DNA from: Candidatus Zixiibacteriota bacterium
Lineage (GTDB): Bacteria > Zixibacteria > MSB-5A5 > GN15 > JAAZOE01
DNA length: 64,000 bases
Assembly (NCBI GenBank): GCA_030668485.1
Contig: DAOUTW010000010.1
Coordinates: forward strand, 1-64,000
Direction: 5' to 3'
Shown: positions 51,207 to 63,281 of the stretch, one piece after another
How positions within the stretch are numbered: position 1 is the first letter of the stretch
Layout of the letters: each line of letters opens with the position of its first letter
The notes under the pieces: model-generated
The model's database searches: none
What the model saw: the letters and a program-made list of their open reading frames with translations, nothing else
Told to the model about the DNA's origin: nothing
Position numbers and translations under genes: made by a program

Positions 51207-51253
51207 ATGTGTGTTGTTACACCGCCGGACATACATGTCACAAGGAGACCAAA

Positions 51254-54200
51254 GTGCGTAGAATATCTCTGATCGTCCTCCTGTTATGCCTTGTTTTCTC
51301 CCTGACTGCCGCAGGAGAGGATTTATGGAAAGTTTCCGTTAATAATCAAGGCGACGCTGAAGTACTAAGAGCTACCGGTATCGAACCGATCATGATCGTC
51401 AGAGGCGGCTACCTGGTTCTGGCTGAGCCCGAATCGTCGGCTCATTTGGAAAAAGGAAGTTTGAAGGCTCGAAGGATTGCCACCGATATAGAGAGGGAAT
51501 TACTGGCGCTGGATAATCGCCGGGACAGGGTCAATATCGATCGTTTTCCGCTTCTTTATGAGGAAGACGGTTTGCGTCTTTTCCGCATTGATGCTGCCAA
51601 ATCGATGATGTCCGAAGACGGTTCTTCACTGGTGCCGCTCAAAAACGACAATATTGTCATCAGATATAAAGCACCTATGAGTCTTAATCAGGCGGCGGTT
51701 TTTCAGGCCGATGATTTGGTCGAACTGATTGACAAAGTATCGTACGATTCGGTCTATAATCACCTGCATCATCTCCAGTCATATAATGAAAGGGTGGCGG
51801 CGACTACGAGTAATCGCGCCGCTCGCGACTGGATTCAAGATGAGTTGCAGGCGTACGGTTATGGGGGAGCCTACACAAGCTCTTTCTCTGCCTATATATA
51901 TACCGGTTATAGAACCTGCTATAATGTGATTGCCTATAAAGAAGGAACAGTTTTCCCCAACCGCCAAATTGTGGTTGGGGCTCATTTTGATGCCGTTCCC
52001 GGTTCGCCCGGCGCTGATGACAATGGCACCGGGACTGTCGGCGTGCTCGAAGTTGCTCGCGCACTGGCCGATGTCGAGACTGAAATGAGTTTTGTCTTTG
52101 TCCTTTTCGATGCCGAAGAACAGGGCCTGAACGGTTCCTGGGATTATGCCGGCGATGCCGCCTCACGTGGCGACAGTATCATCTGTATGCTCAATATGGA
52201 TATGATCGGGCATTATGTTAATAACAATTATGCCGATCTCCAATATGGCCCCGAAGCGGCCTACGCTCTCTTATGGGGCGAACTGGCCGACTCGCTGGTG
52301 AATATCACTGGCTACATGGCCGGATCTGCCTCCAACTCCGATCACTACCCGTTTACGCAATACGGATACGATGTCCTTTTCGCAGCCGAACATGATTTTT
52401 CAAACGTTTATCATTCACCGCGCGACAGCACTTCCTATATTAACTTTGATTACTGTACACGGATGATTAAGGCGACCCTCGCCACTGCCTATACTATCAA
52501 CCTGTCACCCCTTCCGGTGCGGATTTCGTCTATCCGCGATGGCGGCGACGGACAGTCTTTGCAGGTCAACTGGTATGCCGATGATCCGGGCAATATCGAT
52601 CACTATCAGGTATATTTTCTCCCCGAGCCGGGCGGTATGCTTGATTCCGTAACCGTGGCCGCAGGAGAAACCAGTATTATTCTTAACGGACTGACAGAGG
52701 GTCAGGAATATCGCGTTTATGTCCATGGTTATAATGCTGCCGGCTACAGTTCGGCTGTTCGTACCGAGGTATTAGGTACGCCATACTCGCTCCCGTCAAT
52801 ACCGCATGATTATTCTGCGCTGCCCCAATACCGGGCTATCAGCCTGACCTGGAAAGGCGACAACACCGAACTCGATTTCAGTCACTATGTCTTGATCCGC
52901 GACGGGGAAGAATTACCATACATCGTGACCGATACTTTTTTTATCGATAACGATTTCTCTCTCGGCAGCGATTTTCATGATTACTTGGTTGTGGCGGCCG
53001 ATATCGAAGGCAATATCTCAGATACGTCCGGAATTGCCCCGGTTTCGATGCGGGCGGCAACGCTGGAGCCGGGCAGGATTCTGGCTGTCAATCGCTCCAA
53101 TCGTTCCAATCCCTATCTTGTCAACGAAGTAGTCACCGGTGAGTTTATGCGAGATGCCCTCGACGGATACAATTACGTTTACTTGTCTGATACGGCTTCT
53201 TCCGGCGGTGATGACACGTTATCGGTCAACCTGGTCGATATGCTCGATTATGAGGTAATGGTTCTTGGCGGCGAGGCGGCGCGGACTGACGATTTTGCCA
53301 ATTATGCCACTTTTGGCGGTATTCTCGACACAATTGGGTATTTCCTGTCAATCGGGGGCAAAGTGATCATGTTCGGCCGCTGGGGAAATCTCACAACCTC
53401 GTCTGATATTGTCGATACAATCATCTTTGGTACCAGCGGGCCCGACCACGGTTATAAATCTTATTTCCACATGAGTAAGCGTATCCAATACCTGTCGTCT
53501 TTCACCACGACCATTATTAATTCCGACATGATCGGGGCTCACAGCCAGGCAGTAGGATATCCTGATATAGTGTGGGATTCAGTCGCCACCATCGACCATT
53601 CTCTGCCGTGGGCCGAGGTCGGAGGCATTCCCTGCCCGAGTTTTGCCCTGCTGACCGGAGGCGAGTCGGAGATTTTATATACCTATAATTCTCGCAGTAA
53701 TTTTCCTTTAACCGAGGGCAAACCGGTGGCATGGCAGTATAGCGGTGAAGATTATCAATATGCCTATTTCGAGATGCCGCTTTCCTTTATGGAGCGGACA
53801 TCAGCCAAAACTGCTCTGCTGACAGCGCTTTCAGGCATGCTCTCTTCGGGACCGGCCGCTATAGGCGCTATCGAACCGGATACTCTGGACGAGTCCGCGG
53901 GGCTTCCGCCGACAACAGCTATTTATCTCGGCGATTTCATCGACGGCCATACCGCAGCGGATGTTGATCAAGGCAGTCTCCTCATCAATGGTGCCATCGT
54001 GCCGCAGTCGGTATCGGTGTTGCCGTCGCATCCGTCGTTTACCGGCGAGGTCCTTGAGGCTGTGGTGGCGACAGTCGATTTGTTGGATACCTACGGCCCG
54101 ATAATCGACACTCTCAACAAAGTTTATACCGTGCTTTGGAAATATACCGGCGAGACACCAATCTATACCGTGTTTGGACAGATAACTTTGATCGGCATGC

Positions 54201-54406
54201 CGTTTGAGCCGGGTGACGCCAACGGCGACTGGCTGGTCAACGTCGCCGATGCTGTTTATGTTATAAACTATGTTTTCAAGGGCGGTCCGGCGCCTGAACC
54301 GATCGGGGCGGGCGACGCCAATTGCGATGGCACTGTCGATGTCGGTGATGCCGTCTACCTGATCCAATATGTCTTCAATGGTGGTCCGCCGCCGGGCTGC
54401 GATTGA
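51254..54406 (+). CDS. Exported M28 metallopeptidase with shared chassis and dockerin (array member 3)
   Basis: 1050 residues from the GTG at 51254 (AAGGAGA upstream; the ATG at 51209 would sit at the promoter). Signal peptide about 1-19. Prodomain-like DLWKVSVNNQGDAEVLRATG parallels array member 1. M28 zinc ligands: VGAHFDAV, GADDNGTG, DAEEQGL, MLNMDMIGHY, VYHSPRD. Two fibronectin-III-like domains, chassis from [21 protein letters not shown] (about 606) with [28 protein letters not shown] and [10 protein letters not shown] (about 839), a beta domain IYLGDFIDGHTAADVDQGS, dockerin (985-1050). The chassis is closer to that of member 2 than of member 1, whereas the head is closer to member 1. 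Third-position changes dominate, so the copies are not recent. Confidence 0.92.
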   Translation: MRRISLIVLLLCLVFSLTAAGEDLWKVSVNNQGDAEVLRATGIEPIMIVRGGYLVLAEPESSAHLEKGSLKARRIATDIERELLALDNRRDRVNIDRFPLLYEEDGLRLFRIDAAKSMMSEDGSSLVPLKNDNIVIRYKAPMSLNQAAVFQADDLVELIDKVSYDSVYNHLHHLQSYNERVAATTSNRAARDWIQDELQAYGYGGAYTSSFSAYIYTGYRTCYNVIAYKEGTVFPNRQIVVGAHFDAVPGSPGADDNGTGTVGVLEVARALADVETEMSFVFVLFDAEEQGLNGSWDYAGDAASRGDSIICMLNMDMIGHYVNNNYADLQYGPEAAYALLWGELADSLVNITGYMAGSASNSDHYPFTQYGYDVLFAAEHDFSNVYHSPRDSTSYINFDYCTRMIKATLATAYTINLSPLPVRISSIRDGGDGQSLQVNWYADDPGNIDHYQVYFLPEPGGMLDSVTVAAGETSIILNGLTEGQEYRVYVHGYNAAGYSSAVRTEVLGTPYSLPSIPHDYSALPQYRAISLTWKGDNTELDFSHYVLIRDGEELPYIVTDTFFIDNDFSLGSDFHDYLVVAADIEGNISDTSGIAPVSMRAATLEPGRILAVNRSNRSNPYLVNEVVTGEFMRDALDGYNYVYLSDTASSGGDDTLSVNLVDMLDYEVMVLGGEAARTDDFANYATFGGILDTIGYFLSIGGKVIMFGRWGNLTTSSDIVDTIIFGTSGPDHGYKSYFHMSKRIQYLSSFTTTIINSDMIGAHSQAVGYPDIVWDSVATIDHSLPWAEVGGIPCPSFALLTGGESEILYTYNSRSNFPLTEGKPVAWQYSGEDYQYAYFEMPLSFMERTSAKTALLTALSGMLSSGPAAIGAIEPDTLDESAGLPPTTAIYLGDFIDGHTAADVDQGSLLINGAIVPQSVSVLPSHPSFTGEVLEAVVATVDLLDTYGPIIDTLNKVYTVLWKYTGETPIYTVFGQITLIGMPFEPGDANGDWLVNVADAVYVINYVFKGGPAPEPIGAGDANCDGTVDVGDAVYLIQYVFNGGPPPGCD

Positions 54407-56376: not shown

Positions 56377-56995
56377 ATGAAACGTCTGCTGGTTCTTACT
56401 TTACTTCTTGCGACTGCAATTGGGGCGGGGGACAAAACACCTTACAAATTTGTATTCGGGGGCAACAGTTATACCGGGCCGGAAAACGCCTCGATCACCT
56501 GGCTGGCCGAACGGTATGACTGCGCTATTGCCGGTCTTTCCGACTGGCCGGGGATGTTTGACAGCATCTCGGATACTGCTGATGCGATGGGCAAGGTCTT
56601 CCGGGCCGGGCCGTACGCTTCATCGCAGGAGATCAATCTCTACGACCGCTTCGATCCCGGCAAACAGTACAATGAACGGTTAAGCAGCAGCGCCCTCAAT
56701 GCTGCCGGATGACTGTGGCTTCGATGCCATTGTCGTATATGCTGTGGATAAAGAAGGCCATCGGCTGTACCTCCCGAATGCGCTTGAGATTCCGGTATCC
56801 GCCATGCTTATCGATGTCGGGGATGCGGTACGCCTAATCAGTTACATATTTTTCAATGGTTTGCCCCCTGATGTATTTTCCGCGGGAGATGCTAATTGCG
56901 ACGGCCTGATCAATCTGGGAGATCCGATTTACATTATCAATCATATCTTCCGCTACGGTCCGCCGATTTGTTGTCTTCCCGATCCGGGATTGTAG
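56377..56995 (+). pseudogene. Broken exported dockerin protein gene
   Basis: From ATG 56377 the chain has a signal peptide (MKRLLVLTLLLATAIGAGDK) and KFVFGGNSYTGPENASITWL, then stops at 56710-56712. The reading continues in another frame (56699-56995) with DDCGFDAIVVYAVDKEGHRL and a dockerin that has lost the first calcium loop (only VGDAVRLISYIFFNG remains) but keeps the second (GDANCDGLINLGDPIYIIN). Both a frameshift and at least one large deletion are needed to derive it from a normal gene of the type seen around it. The N-terminal domain is unknown to me. Confidence 0.8.
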
Positions 56996-57988: not shown

Positions 57989-59095
57989 ATGCTGAGTAAG
58001 AAGGCAATACAATATCTTGTTCTGGTGGTTATGGTCGCAGGGCTCCTGCTGACTTCGGTTTCGGCGGACGAAGACAATCCGGTCGTAAAACCGACCGAAA
58101 CCGGCGCCACAACTCCGGATGTGAATCTGTCCCAGGGCGACAACGCCGAGGGCAGGCCGGCTATTTACTTCCCAGAAGAAATCCATAATTTCGGCGATGT
58201 CTCGCAGGCGACTACCCTGGTTCATACTTTTATAGTGATGAATAAAGGCGATGCTCCCCTGAAGTTGATAAGCGCCAGGGCGTCGTGAGGCTGCACCGCC
58301 GTCGTTCTGACGAAGGCGGATATTCCCCCGGGCGGGGAAGGCGAAATTAAGGTTTCTTTAAAAACCGGACGCAAGCGAGGTAATATAAACAAGGGGATCC
58401 GCGTCACTTCCAATGATCCCAAAAATAAAACAAAAACGATTCGGGTTAAAGCTAAGATCAACGCCGATAGCGGGGATGAGGACTTCAGTCTCAATATGGA
58501 CAATGTCCGGCGGAATGCCCAGGTTATCAAGGACGTCTATATTCCGATTGACAAAATGACCACCTACGATGTATCCGAAATCGTATCATCCTCAAAATTC
58601 ATTACCGTCAAACAGGTCTTCCCCGATGATTCTGCCGCAGTGCGAGACAGCTTGCATTTCCAGATTTTGATCGGACCGGGACTTGATGTCGGGCTTATGA
58701 GCGAAACAGTGGTTATCCATTTCGAGGATAACAAGAAAGCGCGAGCCAACTACTTTCTGTATGGAATCGTCGTGGACGATATCGAGGTCGCACCGCTGAG
58801 ATTGAGTTATGTCGTCTCCGGAACTGCTATCGATATACCGAACAGTACCAGGAAACTGACCTTGACCAATTATCTTAAGGAAATGTCGCTGGAGATAATA
58901 GATGTCCTGACTCCCGGGAAAAATCTGGATTTCACCATCACGGAGACAAAAAAAGGCGAAGAGTACCAGATTATGGCGGTGGCAAATGATAAAATGCTGG
59001 CGGTTGATTCCACTCTGGAAAGCAAAATTATTATAACAACCAATAATCCGGAAATGCGTCAGATTAAGGTCCCGTTCCGTGTGGTCAGGAGATAA
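57989..59095 (+). CDS. DUF1573-family exported protein with in-frame TGA, probable selenocysteine (U100)
   Basis: 369 codons from ATG 57989 (GAGAGG upstream) to TAA 59095, read through TGA at 58286-58288. Signal peptide about 1-26. The DUF1573 domain (about 50-165) reads YFPEEIHNFGDVSQ, NKGDAPLKLISARAS, then the TGA, then GCTAVVLTKADIPPGGEGEI and KVSLKTGRKRGNINKGIRVTSND. In this family the turn is SCGCT; here the TGA stands exactly where the first Cys belongs, giving S-U-G-C-T. The frame after the TGA is open for 268 codons with normal sequence and a second beta domain. A hairpin directly downstream fits a bacterial SECIS. Alternatives are a fresh nonsense mutation or sequencing error. The Sec-Gly-Cys motif would be a redox site outside the cytoplasm. 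Confidence 0.8.
58286..58319 (+). promoter_or_regulatory. SECIS-like hairpin after the in-frame TGA
   Basis: CCGCC (58296-58300) pairs with GGCGG (58315-58319); inside, GTC (58301-58303) pairs with GAC (58309-58311) around the loop GTTCT, with GAA bulged out. The loop begins 15 bases after the TGA and its first base is G, as bacterial SECIS loops prefer. A second hairpin TTCCCC-CGGGC-GGGGAA lies at 58323-58339. Confidence 0.5.
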
Positions 59096-59224: not shown

Positions 59225-59740
59225 ATGAATATTTTGTTTCTTTGTACCGGTAATTCCTGTCGCAGCCAGATGGCGGAAGGCTGGACCAGGCATTTACAGA
59301 GTCCTGCCATTCAGCCTTATTCAGCCGGTATCGACCCAAAAACCTTGGACCGGCGTGCGGTGATCGTTATGGCGGAAGCCGGAATCGATATTTCCAGGCA
59401 CCATTCCAAGCATGTAAGAGATTTATCGGGAATAACTTTCGATTATGTAATTACCGTGTGCGGTCACGCCGATGAGAATTGCCCGGTTTTTCCCGATGAG
59501 ACTACCGTTGTTCACGTTGGTTTCGATGATCCGCCCCGCCTGGCCGAGGGAGCCGGAACGGAGGAGGAGGCATTGGATCATTACCGCCGAGTGCGGGATG
59601 AGATAAAGGCGTTTGTCCAAACCTTACCCGAGAGTTGGGTAAGAAAGAGTTGGGTAAGAGAGAGGAATCGTAAAAGATGTCGGCAGAAGCCTGTATTACC
59701 AAGAAACCGAAAGGACTCGGTTCGTTCGAGAGATATTTGA
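59225..59740 (+). CDS. arsC: Arsenate reductase, low-molecular-weight phosphatase type
   Basis: 171 residues from the ATG at 59225 (a TTG 6 bases upstream is possible). P-loop [12 protein letters not shown] (Cys8, Arg14) and the redox Cys pair [13 protein letters not shown] identify the thioredoxin-linked ArsC class; [13 protein letters not shown] is the usual Asp-Pro loop. It reduces arsenate to arsenite in the cytoplasm. The last 35 residues go beyond the normal family end, are very basic and overlap the acr3 gene by 64 bases; two copies of a 15-base unit (AGTTGGGTAAGAAAG / AGTTGGGTAAGAGAG) sit where the family normally ends. With acr3 it forms an arsenic resistance pair; no arsR regulator is visible. 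Confidence 0.92.
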
Positions 59741-60861
59741 CTGTCTGGGTTCTCCTTTGTATCGCCGCCGGAATACTTTTGGGCAAATTTGCTCCAGGAG
59801 TGGCAAAACTCCTCGACGGCATGGCTATTTATATCAATAATGCTCCCGTGGTTTCGATTCCGATCGCTGTCTGCCTCTTTTTTATGATGTATCCGATCAT
59901 GGTCAAAATCGATTTTGGCGAAGTGCTAAAAGCCGGGAAAAACGCCAAACCGGTCGGCCTGACACTTTTTGTAAACTGGCTGATCAAACCATTTACCATG
60001 TTTGCCATCGCCTATTTTTTCCTGGGAACGGTTTTCCAACACCTGATCGGACCCGATGCGGTTGATTTAATAAAAATGCCCTTCGGACTCGATCTGCCGC
60101 TTGGCGCCGTCCATGGCGAAGGTACTGTGGTTGATGTCAACGGCGTCAAAATGCTCCAGGTGCCGCTCTGGCGCAGCTATCTGGCGGGATGTATCCTGCT
60201 CGGAATCGCGCCATGCACGGCGATGGTTCTGGTATGGGGATTCCTGGCTCGCGGCAACGATGGTCATACGCTGGTGATGGTCGCCATCAACTCGCTAGCC
60301 ATGTTTTTTCTTTATGGCCCGCTGGGAGGATTTCTTCTCGGAATCGGCCGTTTGCCGGTGCCGTGGCAGGCGCTTCTTTTGTCAATTGGAATTTATGTCG
60401 CTCTGCCGCTGGTGGCAGGATACTTATCACGCCGCGGGATTGTCGCTGCCAAAGGTAAAGCCTGGTTTGAAACAAGGTTCCTGCCTTTTCTGACTCCGAT
60501 TACCATTGTCGCCTTGCTGATCACCCTGATTCTTTTGTTCTCCTTTAAGGGGGAAGTGATATTGGGTAATCCTCTGACAATCCTCTGGATCGCGGTGCCG
60601 TTGTTTATCCAGACAGTGCTTATTTTTGCATTGACCTATATTCTGGCGCGCGTCATGCGCCTTTCGTACCGTGACGCTGCGCCATCTGCAATGATCGGCG
60701 CTTCCAATCATTTTGAAGTCGCGATTGCAACGGCAGTCATGCTTTTTGGATTATCTTCCGGTGCCTCATTGGCTACCGTGGTCGGCGTGTTGATAGAAGT
60801 GCCGGTAATGCTAATGCTGGTCAAAATCTGTCTGCGAACTCAAAATCACTTTGCCAAATGA
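59677..60861 (+). CDS. acr3: Arsenite efflux permease ACR3
   Basis: 394 residues, ten membrane segments, full family length. Marks of ACR3 are the early [19 protein letters not shown], the third segment region with [33 protein letters not shown] (the Cys thought to bind arsenite, about residue 180) and [18 protein letters not shown] (about 344-361). It exports arsenite made by ArsC, driven by the proton gradient. It starts inside arsC (overlap of 64 bases), so translation should be coupled. Confidence 0.95.
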
Positions 60862-61354: not shown

Positions 61355-61595
61355 AAAACTCCCTCCTGCGTGTAGCTTCGATTATATGTTATAACCGACA
61401 ATTTCCTATAAAATATAAGTTATCGATAATTACTATACCACAAGAATCGTAACGGACATAGGAGATAACCTATGGAGGAAATAACCCTTGTATAGAACCG
61501 GCAGCCGGCTATATTGACAGTGAGATCGCTAATGATCCGCACTTCCGGTGTGCCGCTGTGCCACGCCGATGATGCGGAAGGGAGAAATAATTGGT

Positions 61596-62012
61596 ATGAA
61601 GCGGTATGCCCAAAATCATGCGCGGTCTATTTTTGTTTTCGGCTCGACTCTACTGATAATATTTGCGGCAATATCGGCGGAAGCTGATCAAGAAAATCTC
61701 AAAAAATCCACAGACCGGGCTAACGCCTTTATCCTCAAACACAATATCGACGGATCAAATATCTTCTGTTGTACCCACCCGGGCGATGCCAATGGTGATG
61801 GAAATTTCAACGTCGCCGATCCGGTGTTTGTTATCAGCTATATTTTCCGGCAGGGAATTAAACCGCTCTGCCCCAACGCCATCGATGTCACCAATGACTG
61901 TGCAATAAACATCGCCGATGTGGTCCAAATGCTCGGCGCCCTGTTTGTGCCGACATGGCCGGACCCGTCGTTTGAATGCGCTCCTGAATCGTGCGAATAC
62001 TGGGGATATTGA
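61596..62012 (+). CDS. Short exported dockerin protein with CAPESC tail
   Basis: 138 residues from the ATG at 61596 (AAGGGAGA upstream). Signal peptide about 1-33. Between 34 and 62 only a short linker is seen, then CCTHPGDANGDGNFNVADPV starts a dockerin pair (65-125). The second loop, DVTNDCAINIADV, has lost Gly and part of its acidic set. The chain ends in ECAPESCEYWGY. It has no other domain, so it might occupy cohesins or act as an adaptor. It is closest to the C-terminus of the next gene. Confidence 0.75.
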   Translation: MKRYAQNHARSIFVFGSTLLIIFAAISAEADQENLKKSTDRANAFILKHNIDGSNIFCCTHPGDANGDGNFNVADPVFVISYIFRQGIKPLCPNAIDVTNDCAINIADVVQMLGALFVPTWPDPSFECAPESCEYWGY

Positions 62013-62189: not shown

Positions 62190-63281
62190 ATGCTTGTATT
62201 GACTCAGTCGCGGATGACAACGCTTGTTGTCATGGGGGCCATTCTACTAAGTTTCACGGCAATCTCAGGCGCGGAAAACACCGATCCGATATTACTCGTA
62301 GGGCTTACTGATACTACAGCACAGGTTGGCGCCGACGCCTGGGTTAGCGTCTACCTCGCCAATTACCAGGATACCCTCGCAGGATTTAGCCTTTATGTTG
62401 TGGCCGACCAGCCCGATATAATTCAATTCCAGACCGATCCCGACGACCCGGTGCTCACGCCGGGCGGAGTCGACACCGCCGGGACGGCAATATCCGGATG
62501 GCAATATGTGGGAGCCAATTCGTTTTCCGCCGGTCGCACCGATATAAAAGTAACGGCCATGGCCAATGTTGCTGGCCCCCCGTATCAGCCGGGGCTGCTG
62601 CCACAGGAGACTCCGGTTTTGCTCATGCGCCTCAAGGTCAGGGTAGCTGATGAACTTCCGTTTGCGACCGATTCTGTGGTTATTCTTCATATCGAGAAAA
62701 GTCTTCAACTCACGGCCTTTTCCGATCCCTCGGGAGACCTGATCGGAACGGTAGCCAATTACAATATCTGCGATACGACCTATTGGTGCTGCGTGGAGTG
62801 GAGCGGTGATACCTGCCTGGGGTGGACGCCCTGTGATCCTATTTTGGCCGATTCTATCTATATCGACACTTTCTCCACCTACTGGTGTTGCGATGAATGG
62901 TCCGGCGATACCTGCATGGGATGGACGGTATGTTTGCCTCCCGGTGATTCCGTTGAAATCCATCATCAACCCTGGACCTCGTTGGATACTTCCGCCGTTT
63001 TCTATGTTGATGGCGAGTTCCGGGTTGTTCCCGATTTCTGCTGCAACTTCCCGGGAGATATGAACGGTGACGAGATGGTCAACGTCACTGATCCTGTATT
63101 CCTGATCAATCATATTTTCAGGAACGGACCACCACCGTCATGTCCTCAGGCGGCCGACGTCAACGGCGATTGCATGATAAATATAGGCGATGTACTTGGG
63201 GTCTTACGCCCGATATTCAATATCGACCCGTGGGAACCGCTTGAATGTGCACCTGATAGCTGTGTCTATTTTGGTTATTAG
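62190..63281 (+). CDS. Exported cohesin-like protein with Cys-rich repeats and dockerin
   Basis: 363 residues; GGGAGGAG 7 bases before the ATG. Signal peptide about 1-28. A cohesin-like beta domain (about 29-190) resembles the third module of the protein at 33509: VGADAWVSVYLANYQDTLAGFSLYVVADQPDIIQF. Two copies of a Cys/Trp-rich motif follow: YWCCVEWSGDTCLGW (about 195) and YWCCDEWSGDTCMGW (about 230). Dockerin pair 288-345 (GDMNGDEMVNVTDPVFLIN; DVNGDCMINIGDVLGVL). The end ECAPDSCVYFGY matches that of the gene upstream. I infer an extracellular scaffold or binding protein. Confidence 0.82.
   Translation: MLVLTQSRMTTLVVMGAILLSFTAISGAENTDPILLVGLTDTTAQVGADAWVSVYLANYQDTLAGFSLYVVADQPDIIQFQTDPDDPVLTPGGVDTAGTAISGWQYVGANSFSAGRTDIKVTAMANVAGPPYQPGLLPQETPVLLMRLKVRVADELPFATDSVVILHIEKSLQLTAFSDPSGDLIGTVANYNICDTTYWCCVEWSGDTCLGWTPCDPILADSIYIDTFSTYWCCDEWSGDTCMGWTVCLPPGDSVEIHHQPWTSLDTSAVFYVDGEFRVVPDFCCNFPGDMNGDEMVNVTDPVFLINHIFRNGPPPSCPQAADVNGDCMINIGDVLGVLRPIFNIDPWEPLECAPDSCVYFGY

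Follow-up and report, generated by a model that had tools for sequence, protein, structure and literature searches.

The window analysed here, a stretch of 64,000 nucleotides from the genome of a Candidatus Zixiibacteriota bacterium, carries on one strand, in this order, a DUF1573 gene interrupted by an in-frame TGA, an arsC-like gene and an ACR3 gene. DUF1573 genes with TGA at the first Cys codon of their motif are referred to below as Sec-type genes or Sec-DUF1573, and their homologues with Cys at this position as Cys-type. The features of the locus are as follows.

57989..59095, plus strand: gene for a putative DUF1573 (OS_HP2-like) selenoprotein of 368 aa, with Sec as residue 100
58169..58456, plus strand: DUF1573 domain (Pfam PF07610)
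58286..58288, plus strand: putative Sec-encoding TGA (UGA), position 1 of the U-G-C turn, found in the same column in 58 domains
58296..58319, plus strand: hairpin 1, candidate SECIS spacer hairpin, UUCU loop, UGA-to-loop distance 17 nt
58323..58339, plus strand: hairpin 2, candidate SECIS (TTCCCC-CGGGC-GGGGAA), G-rich loop, UGA-to-loop distance 40 nt
59225..59740, plus strand: next gene downstream, ArsC-like arsenate reductase of the thioredoxin-linked (LMW phosphatase) type (TIGR02691, E 1.4e-38)
59677..60861, plus strand: ACR3 arsenite efflux transporter (TIGR00832, 385.6 bits, cut-off 282.8)

The frame 57989-59095 runs from an ATG to a TAA codon. Just as the initial annotation had stated, its single internal stop is the TGA of codon 100 (58286-58288); the surrounding residues read RAS-*-GCTAVVL. 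When this TGA was read as a residue, residues 61-156 matched DUF1573 (PF07610) with 79.3 bits (E 2.2e-22; gathering cut-off 26.1 bits), in agreement with the claim that the sequence on both sides of the TGA is normal for the family. In all alignments made, the TGA coincides with the first Cys of the DUF1573 CGC motif, the position that had been assigned to it. The protein has an N-terminal hydrophobic segment followed by three Ig-like beta domains, of which DUF1573 is the first, and its predicted structure (mean pLDDT 78) begins with a helix at the N-terminus, after which come three beta-sandwich domains. From the hydrophobic segment we infer that the protein is exported or anchored. In the model, Sec is placed in the turn joining strands 93-98 and 102-106 of an Ig-like domain, and the active site is probably this Sec-Gly-Cys turn. 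The fold search with the window protein retrieved generic Ig-like/ASH-type matches with low TM-scores, mostly HYDIN/ASH-type axonemal proteins and cadherins, and the sole PDB sequence match was the uncharacterised protein 2qsv (E 0.005); neither search gave a functional lead. Several other proteins of the window (51209-54406, 56699-56995, 61548-62012 and 62190-63281) end in dockerin-type-looking repeats (GDANGDWLVNVADAVYVINYVFKGG), which may be common to many exported proteins of this genome.

All of the sel genes that the initial annotation had proposed to look for, selA, selB, selC (tRNA-Sec) and selD, were found in the source genome, whose completeness is 99.95%. The selA gene (506 bits) adjoins selB (328 bits), both scoring above the profile cut-offs, and the tRNA-Sec (73.5 bits) lies on the same contig. 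The selD gene (387 bits; contig C39, L073:1441-2484) has one in-frame TGA of its own (CAGUASK), thus indicating that SelD itself is a selenoprotein in this organism. Searches with TIGR00475 (selB) and RF01852 in the relatives were of no use as a negative control, since Sec decoding is present in nearly the whole phylum.

The source genome has five DUF1573 genes; four contain a single TGA, and the fifth has CDC. Across all fetched loci, which yielded 58 Sec-type and 90 Cys-type DUF1573 domains, TGA occurs solely at the first Cys codon of the motif, never at a random place; it pairs there with the Cys of the homologues, and coding is conserved on both sides of it. The window protein thereby shows the published OS_HP2/DUF1573 motif, with Sec first in U-x-C or UGC. 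The motif varies in two genes, L174:3248-3493 and L175:3626-3868, which have U-H-C instead of U-G-C; each stands in an arsenic cluster with a U-G-C paralogue alongside and carries the same downstream hairpin. One further copy (L180, G036:C91:17727-18434) has UGC and the usual hairpin, but its matched frame contains two TGA and one TAG, which may mean that the gene has decayed or that the frame is an artefact.

In metagenome assemblies, a lone in-frame stop often stems from a sequencing error or a nonsense mutation, and the window gene might accordingly be taken for a decaying pseudogene. We consider the probability of this negligible and reject it: 58 distinct domains, from several phyla and many genomes, share a TGA at this codon, as do four of the five paralogues of the source genome, the frame 3′ of it is still conserved, and the sel genes are at hand. 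The presence of TGA inside several genes of the same genome could also reflect a general reassignment or read-through of this codon as Trp, Gly or Cys, without selenium. However, TGA terminates other genes of the window, which rules out a genome-wide code change; moreover, the in-frame TGAs are confined to a redox Cys position, the Sec machinery is complete, tRNA-Sec included, and downstream hairpins are limited to the TGA-bearing genes, so that this possibility is very improbable as well. Taken together, the sel genes, the invariant TGA site and an RNA fold conserved in the Sec but not in the Cys genes uphold the proposal that Sec replaces the first Cys of the turn, and we estimate at about 0.96 the probability that UGA codon 100 is decoded as Sec in a DUF1573 selenoprotein. 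Most probably, SelB and tRNA-Sec would decode this codon under the direction of a bipartite element located just 3′ of the UGA.

This RNA element differs in part from what had been described. The initial annotation placed one hairpin with a G-first loop where bacteria keep the SECIS. A hairpin is indeed present there, but there are two of them: hairpin 1 has the loop UUCU in the minimum-energy fold, not a G-first loop, and hairpin 2 is a 6-bp stem closed by the loop CGGGC, with an energy below -7.5 kcal/mol. The published bSECIS model requires a G within the first two loop positions and a UGA-to-loop distance of 16-37 nt (PMC13188914). Hairpin 2 is a stem-loop 3′ of the UGA with the required G but lies beyond this range, at 40 nt, whereas hairpin 1, at 17 nt, occupies the proper place but lacks the G. 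According to the same review, some bSECIS elements lie outside the model (PMC13188914). In the relatives from Desulfobacterota, which are one codon shorter, the same G-loop is found at 37 nt, within the bSECIS spacing; the GIVIPP group of Sec genes (see below) has a different hairpin, with the loop AGUU 29 nt from the UGA, which also falls within the spacing. The Rfam search around the TGA gave no match, and evidently no Rfam model catches the downstream element.

The synonymous recoding test showed that the stability of hairpin 1 in the window gene exceeds that of the recoded sequences (p = 0.0066); for the whole stretch 3′ of the TGA the test gave p = 0.036, and for hairpin 2 alone p = 0.15, which is not significant. 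When the region +12..+41 after the TGA was compared between the two types of genes, the mean z was -1.93 for 37 Sec genes vs. -0.09 for 34 Cys genes, and p < 0.05 was reached by 20/37 and 3/34 of them, respectively. RNAalifold did not recover hairpin 1 as a common structure of subfamily 1 but did recover it in the Desulfobacterota group; because its register varies among the sequences, hairpin 1 is supported by the recoding test and, except in Desulfobacterota, not by covariation.

The codons that make up hairpin 2 vary very little in Sec genes. For the peptide IPPGGEG, the codons ATT CCC CCG GGY GGG GAA are almost invariant across 35 Sec genes from Zixiibacteriota, Desulfobacterota, Myxococcota and CSSED10-310, whereas none of nine Cys genes encoding this peptide or one almost identical to it has this codon set, and hairpin 2 is absent from them. 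The difference in codon usage between Sec and Cys genes is significant both at the first Pro codon (Fisher 8e-6) and at the second Gly codon (2e-6). In the A[VI]GDS group, a compensatory change of a G-C to an A-T pair distinguishes GCTGTCGGTGACAGC from GCTATCGGTGATAGC in 6 of 20 sequences, and the position held by Pro in most Cys relatives is Val or Ile in the Sec genes; here, the hairpin appears even to have dictated the protein sequence. We suggest that the element would be bipartite, in that a variable hairpin acting as a spacer precedes a second, strongly conserved one whose loop is of the C-GG-N type; hairpin 2 would serve as the SelB site and hairpin 1 would shorten its distance to the UGA.

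The two genes downstream of the Sec-DUF1573 gene belong to arsenic detoxification families. ACR3 is confidently assigned by its profile, and the ArsC-like protein scores 132 bits against TIGR02691, below the equivalog cut-off of 174. Similar neighbourhoods recur in other loci (L049, L051, L052, L091, L143 and L174-L178). In L051 the order is ArsR, an ArsP-type permease, ArsE, ArsF, ArsG, ACR3 and Sec-DUF1573, and in L052 it is a permease, ArsE, ArsF, ArsG, Sec-DUF1573, ArsC and ACR3. L091 and L177 have the same set, with ArsR and ArsC 3′ of the Sec gene, and variant ars clusters with Sec-DUF1573 were found in L049, L176 and a Desulfobacterales contig, L143. In another family (L174, L175 and L178), ACR3-ArsC clusters contain two Sec-DUF1573 genes of the A-I-GDS group. 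ACR3 is found near five of the phylum's 15 full-length subfamily-1 Sec genes, where well below one such case would be expected; the chance of this under random placement is ~3e-9, a figure that ignores shared ancestry. A sixth gene (G101) stands beside ArsG and ArsC on a contig whose end holds the beginning of ACR3. By a hand count, ACR3 is nearby for 8 of ~66 TGA-type vs. 0 of ~84 Cys-type DUF1573 hits.

The association is not general. The other 10 of the 15 subfamily-1 genes, some of them cut by contig ends, are not near ACR3; the C77 paralogue of the source genome and several orthologues lie outside ars clusters, and the genome's own ArsEFG set is on another contig (L181), without DUF1573. 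The Sec-DUF1573 copies of Myxococcota mostly follow pgk and tpi. In Desulfobacteraceae and related bacteria (L101, L105, L117, L119 and L120), Sec-DUF1573 stands between a rex-like gene, identified by sequence only, and an RNase HI gene; the Desulfobacteraceae copies come after the rex-like gene. Since most subfamily-1 genes of the phylum are outside ars clusters, and the neighbours in Desulfobacteraceae and Myxococcota are mostly Rex/RNase H and pgk/tpi, arsenic cannot be the sole role of these proteins.

Given the recurrence of Sec-DUF1573 in ars clusters, it most likely serves there as a selenol/thiol partner for arsenic detoxification in the periplasm, and for the window gene taken alone we regard a role in arsenic handling as an even bet. 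The Sec-Gly-Cys turn, which the initial annotation called a strong redox centre, may be one; it would either form a selenenylsulfide reversibly or provide a site for soft metals, and the protein would act as a periplasmic redox or As(III)-binding partner that binds or reduces arsenic species in this compartment. ArsG is a DsbD-like membrane protein by profile (PF13386) and ArsE is thioredoxin-like, which makes it plausible that electrons are relayed outward, to ArsF and Sec-DUF1573: ArsE, ArsG and ArsF may pass them on and so keep Sec-DUF1573 reduced. We tentatively propose, at somewhat less than even odds, that Sec-DUF1573 represents an unrecognised selenium-dependent branch of arsenic detoxification working with ArsEFG, ACR3 and ArsP, and that it is made with the help of a two-hairpin SECIS in which the SelB-binding loop, though distant, would come within reach by means of the spacer hairpin.

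The genomic data are also compatible with a general thiol redox function of Sec-DUF1573 in the envelope, the arsenic genes being incidental neighbours. The 10 subfamily-1 genes away from ACR3, with the reservation about contig ends, and the Rex and pgk-tpi neighbours in Desulfobacteraceae and Myxococcota speak for such a function; on the other hand, two Sec-DUF1573 sequence groups occur in ars clusters, in several families of the phylum and on one Desulfobacterales contig, and no Cys-type match in the same list, read by eye, is near ACR3. We give this possibility, too, a little under an even chance. Selenols bind As(III) tightly, and an Ig-like scaffold carrying a selenol and a thiol in vicinal positions, encoded beside efflux genes, could belong to a periplasmic metallochaperone, in which U-G-C would bind a soft metal(loid) such as As(III) or Cu rather than perform redox chemistry. 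This seems unlikely, as the thioredoxin-like and DsbD-like proteins of the ArsEFG set point to redox.

The Sec-DUF1573 genes fall into three sequence groups: the long IPPGGEG form, to which the window gene and the C77 paralogue belong, the short A(V/I)GDS form (C26 and C2), and the GIVIPP form of other families. Parsimony on the tree, in which this short domain is weakly resolved, implies at least nine changes between Sec and Cys, of which three are made unavoidable by branches with strong support. In L020 and L067, Sec and Cys copies stand in tandem within one genome, and these adjacent paralogues form a natural pair for studying the gain or loss of Sec. Sec-DUF1573 is common in a whole phylum, with several genes per genome and dozens of Sec/Cys pairs, of which some are tandem copies in one genome, and thus offers a large natural data set on the gain and loss of Sec and its RNA signal.

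The family itself is not new. The initial annotation took the gene for a probable new selenoprotein and knew of no described DUF1573 selenoprotein; the published tables and the NCBIfam model NF041425, "OS_HP2 family (seleno)protein", show that this was wrong (PMC2398784, PMC9312934, PMC13188914). DUF1573 has been listed as a selenoprotein since 2008: the ocean survey reported OS_HP2 (pfam07610, UxC) with 2 Sec vs. 354 Cys sequences (PMC2398784), and the selenoprotein tables of the 2022 and 2026 reviews include DUF1573 with the UGC motif (PMC9312934, PMC13188914). The listed OS_HP2/DUF1573 selenoprotein comes from the Olavius algarvensis symbiont and from ocean metagenomes. Apparently new are the several Sec-DUF1573 paralogues per Zixiibacteriota genome in three sequence groups, the candidate bipartite SECIS with its G-loop hairpin 40 nt from the UGA, and the recurrent linkage to the arsenic genes ACR3, ArsC, ArsEFG, ArsP and ArsR. 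In the literature searched, we found no report tying DUF1573 or selenoproteins to arsenic-resistance clusters or to ArsG, and no description of Sec-DUF1573 as a component of an ars operon. The arsenic context thus provides the first concrete functional lead for a family of selenoproteins listed since 2008 without a function.

When compared to the bSECIS model, hairpin 2 of the window is similar in its vicinity to the UGA, in its 6-bp stem, in its energy below -7.5 kcal/mol and in a G within the first two loop positions followed by another G; it differs, as in most Zixiibacteriota genes, in that the G-loop hairpin lies 40-41 nt away with an extra hairpin between. If hairpin 2 is a SECIS, the usual limit of 37 nt can miss real bacterial SECIS elements. 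The clusters described here consist of the same gene families as known ars operons (arsEFG, acr3, arsC, arsP and arsR), as confirmed with NCBIfam and Pfam, but hold in addition one or two Sec-DUF1573 genes. With the OS_HP2 family, the window protein shares the domain and the site of Sec (UxC/UGC), and the Desulfobacteraceae members found in this work exceed the NF041425 cut-off of 100 bits (107.7 bits for L101). The C77 paralogue scores 95.6 bits, and the window protein itself remains below the cut-off, with 89.9 bits (E 1e-25) over positions 2-97 of the 98 in the profile. It is also longer, with three Ig-like domains, and belongs to a Zixiibacteriota host in which the Sec paralogues have multiplied and arsenic genes lie alongside.
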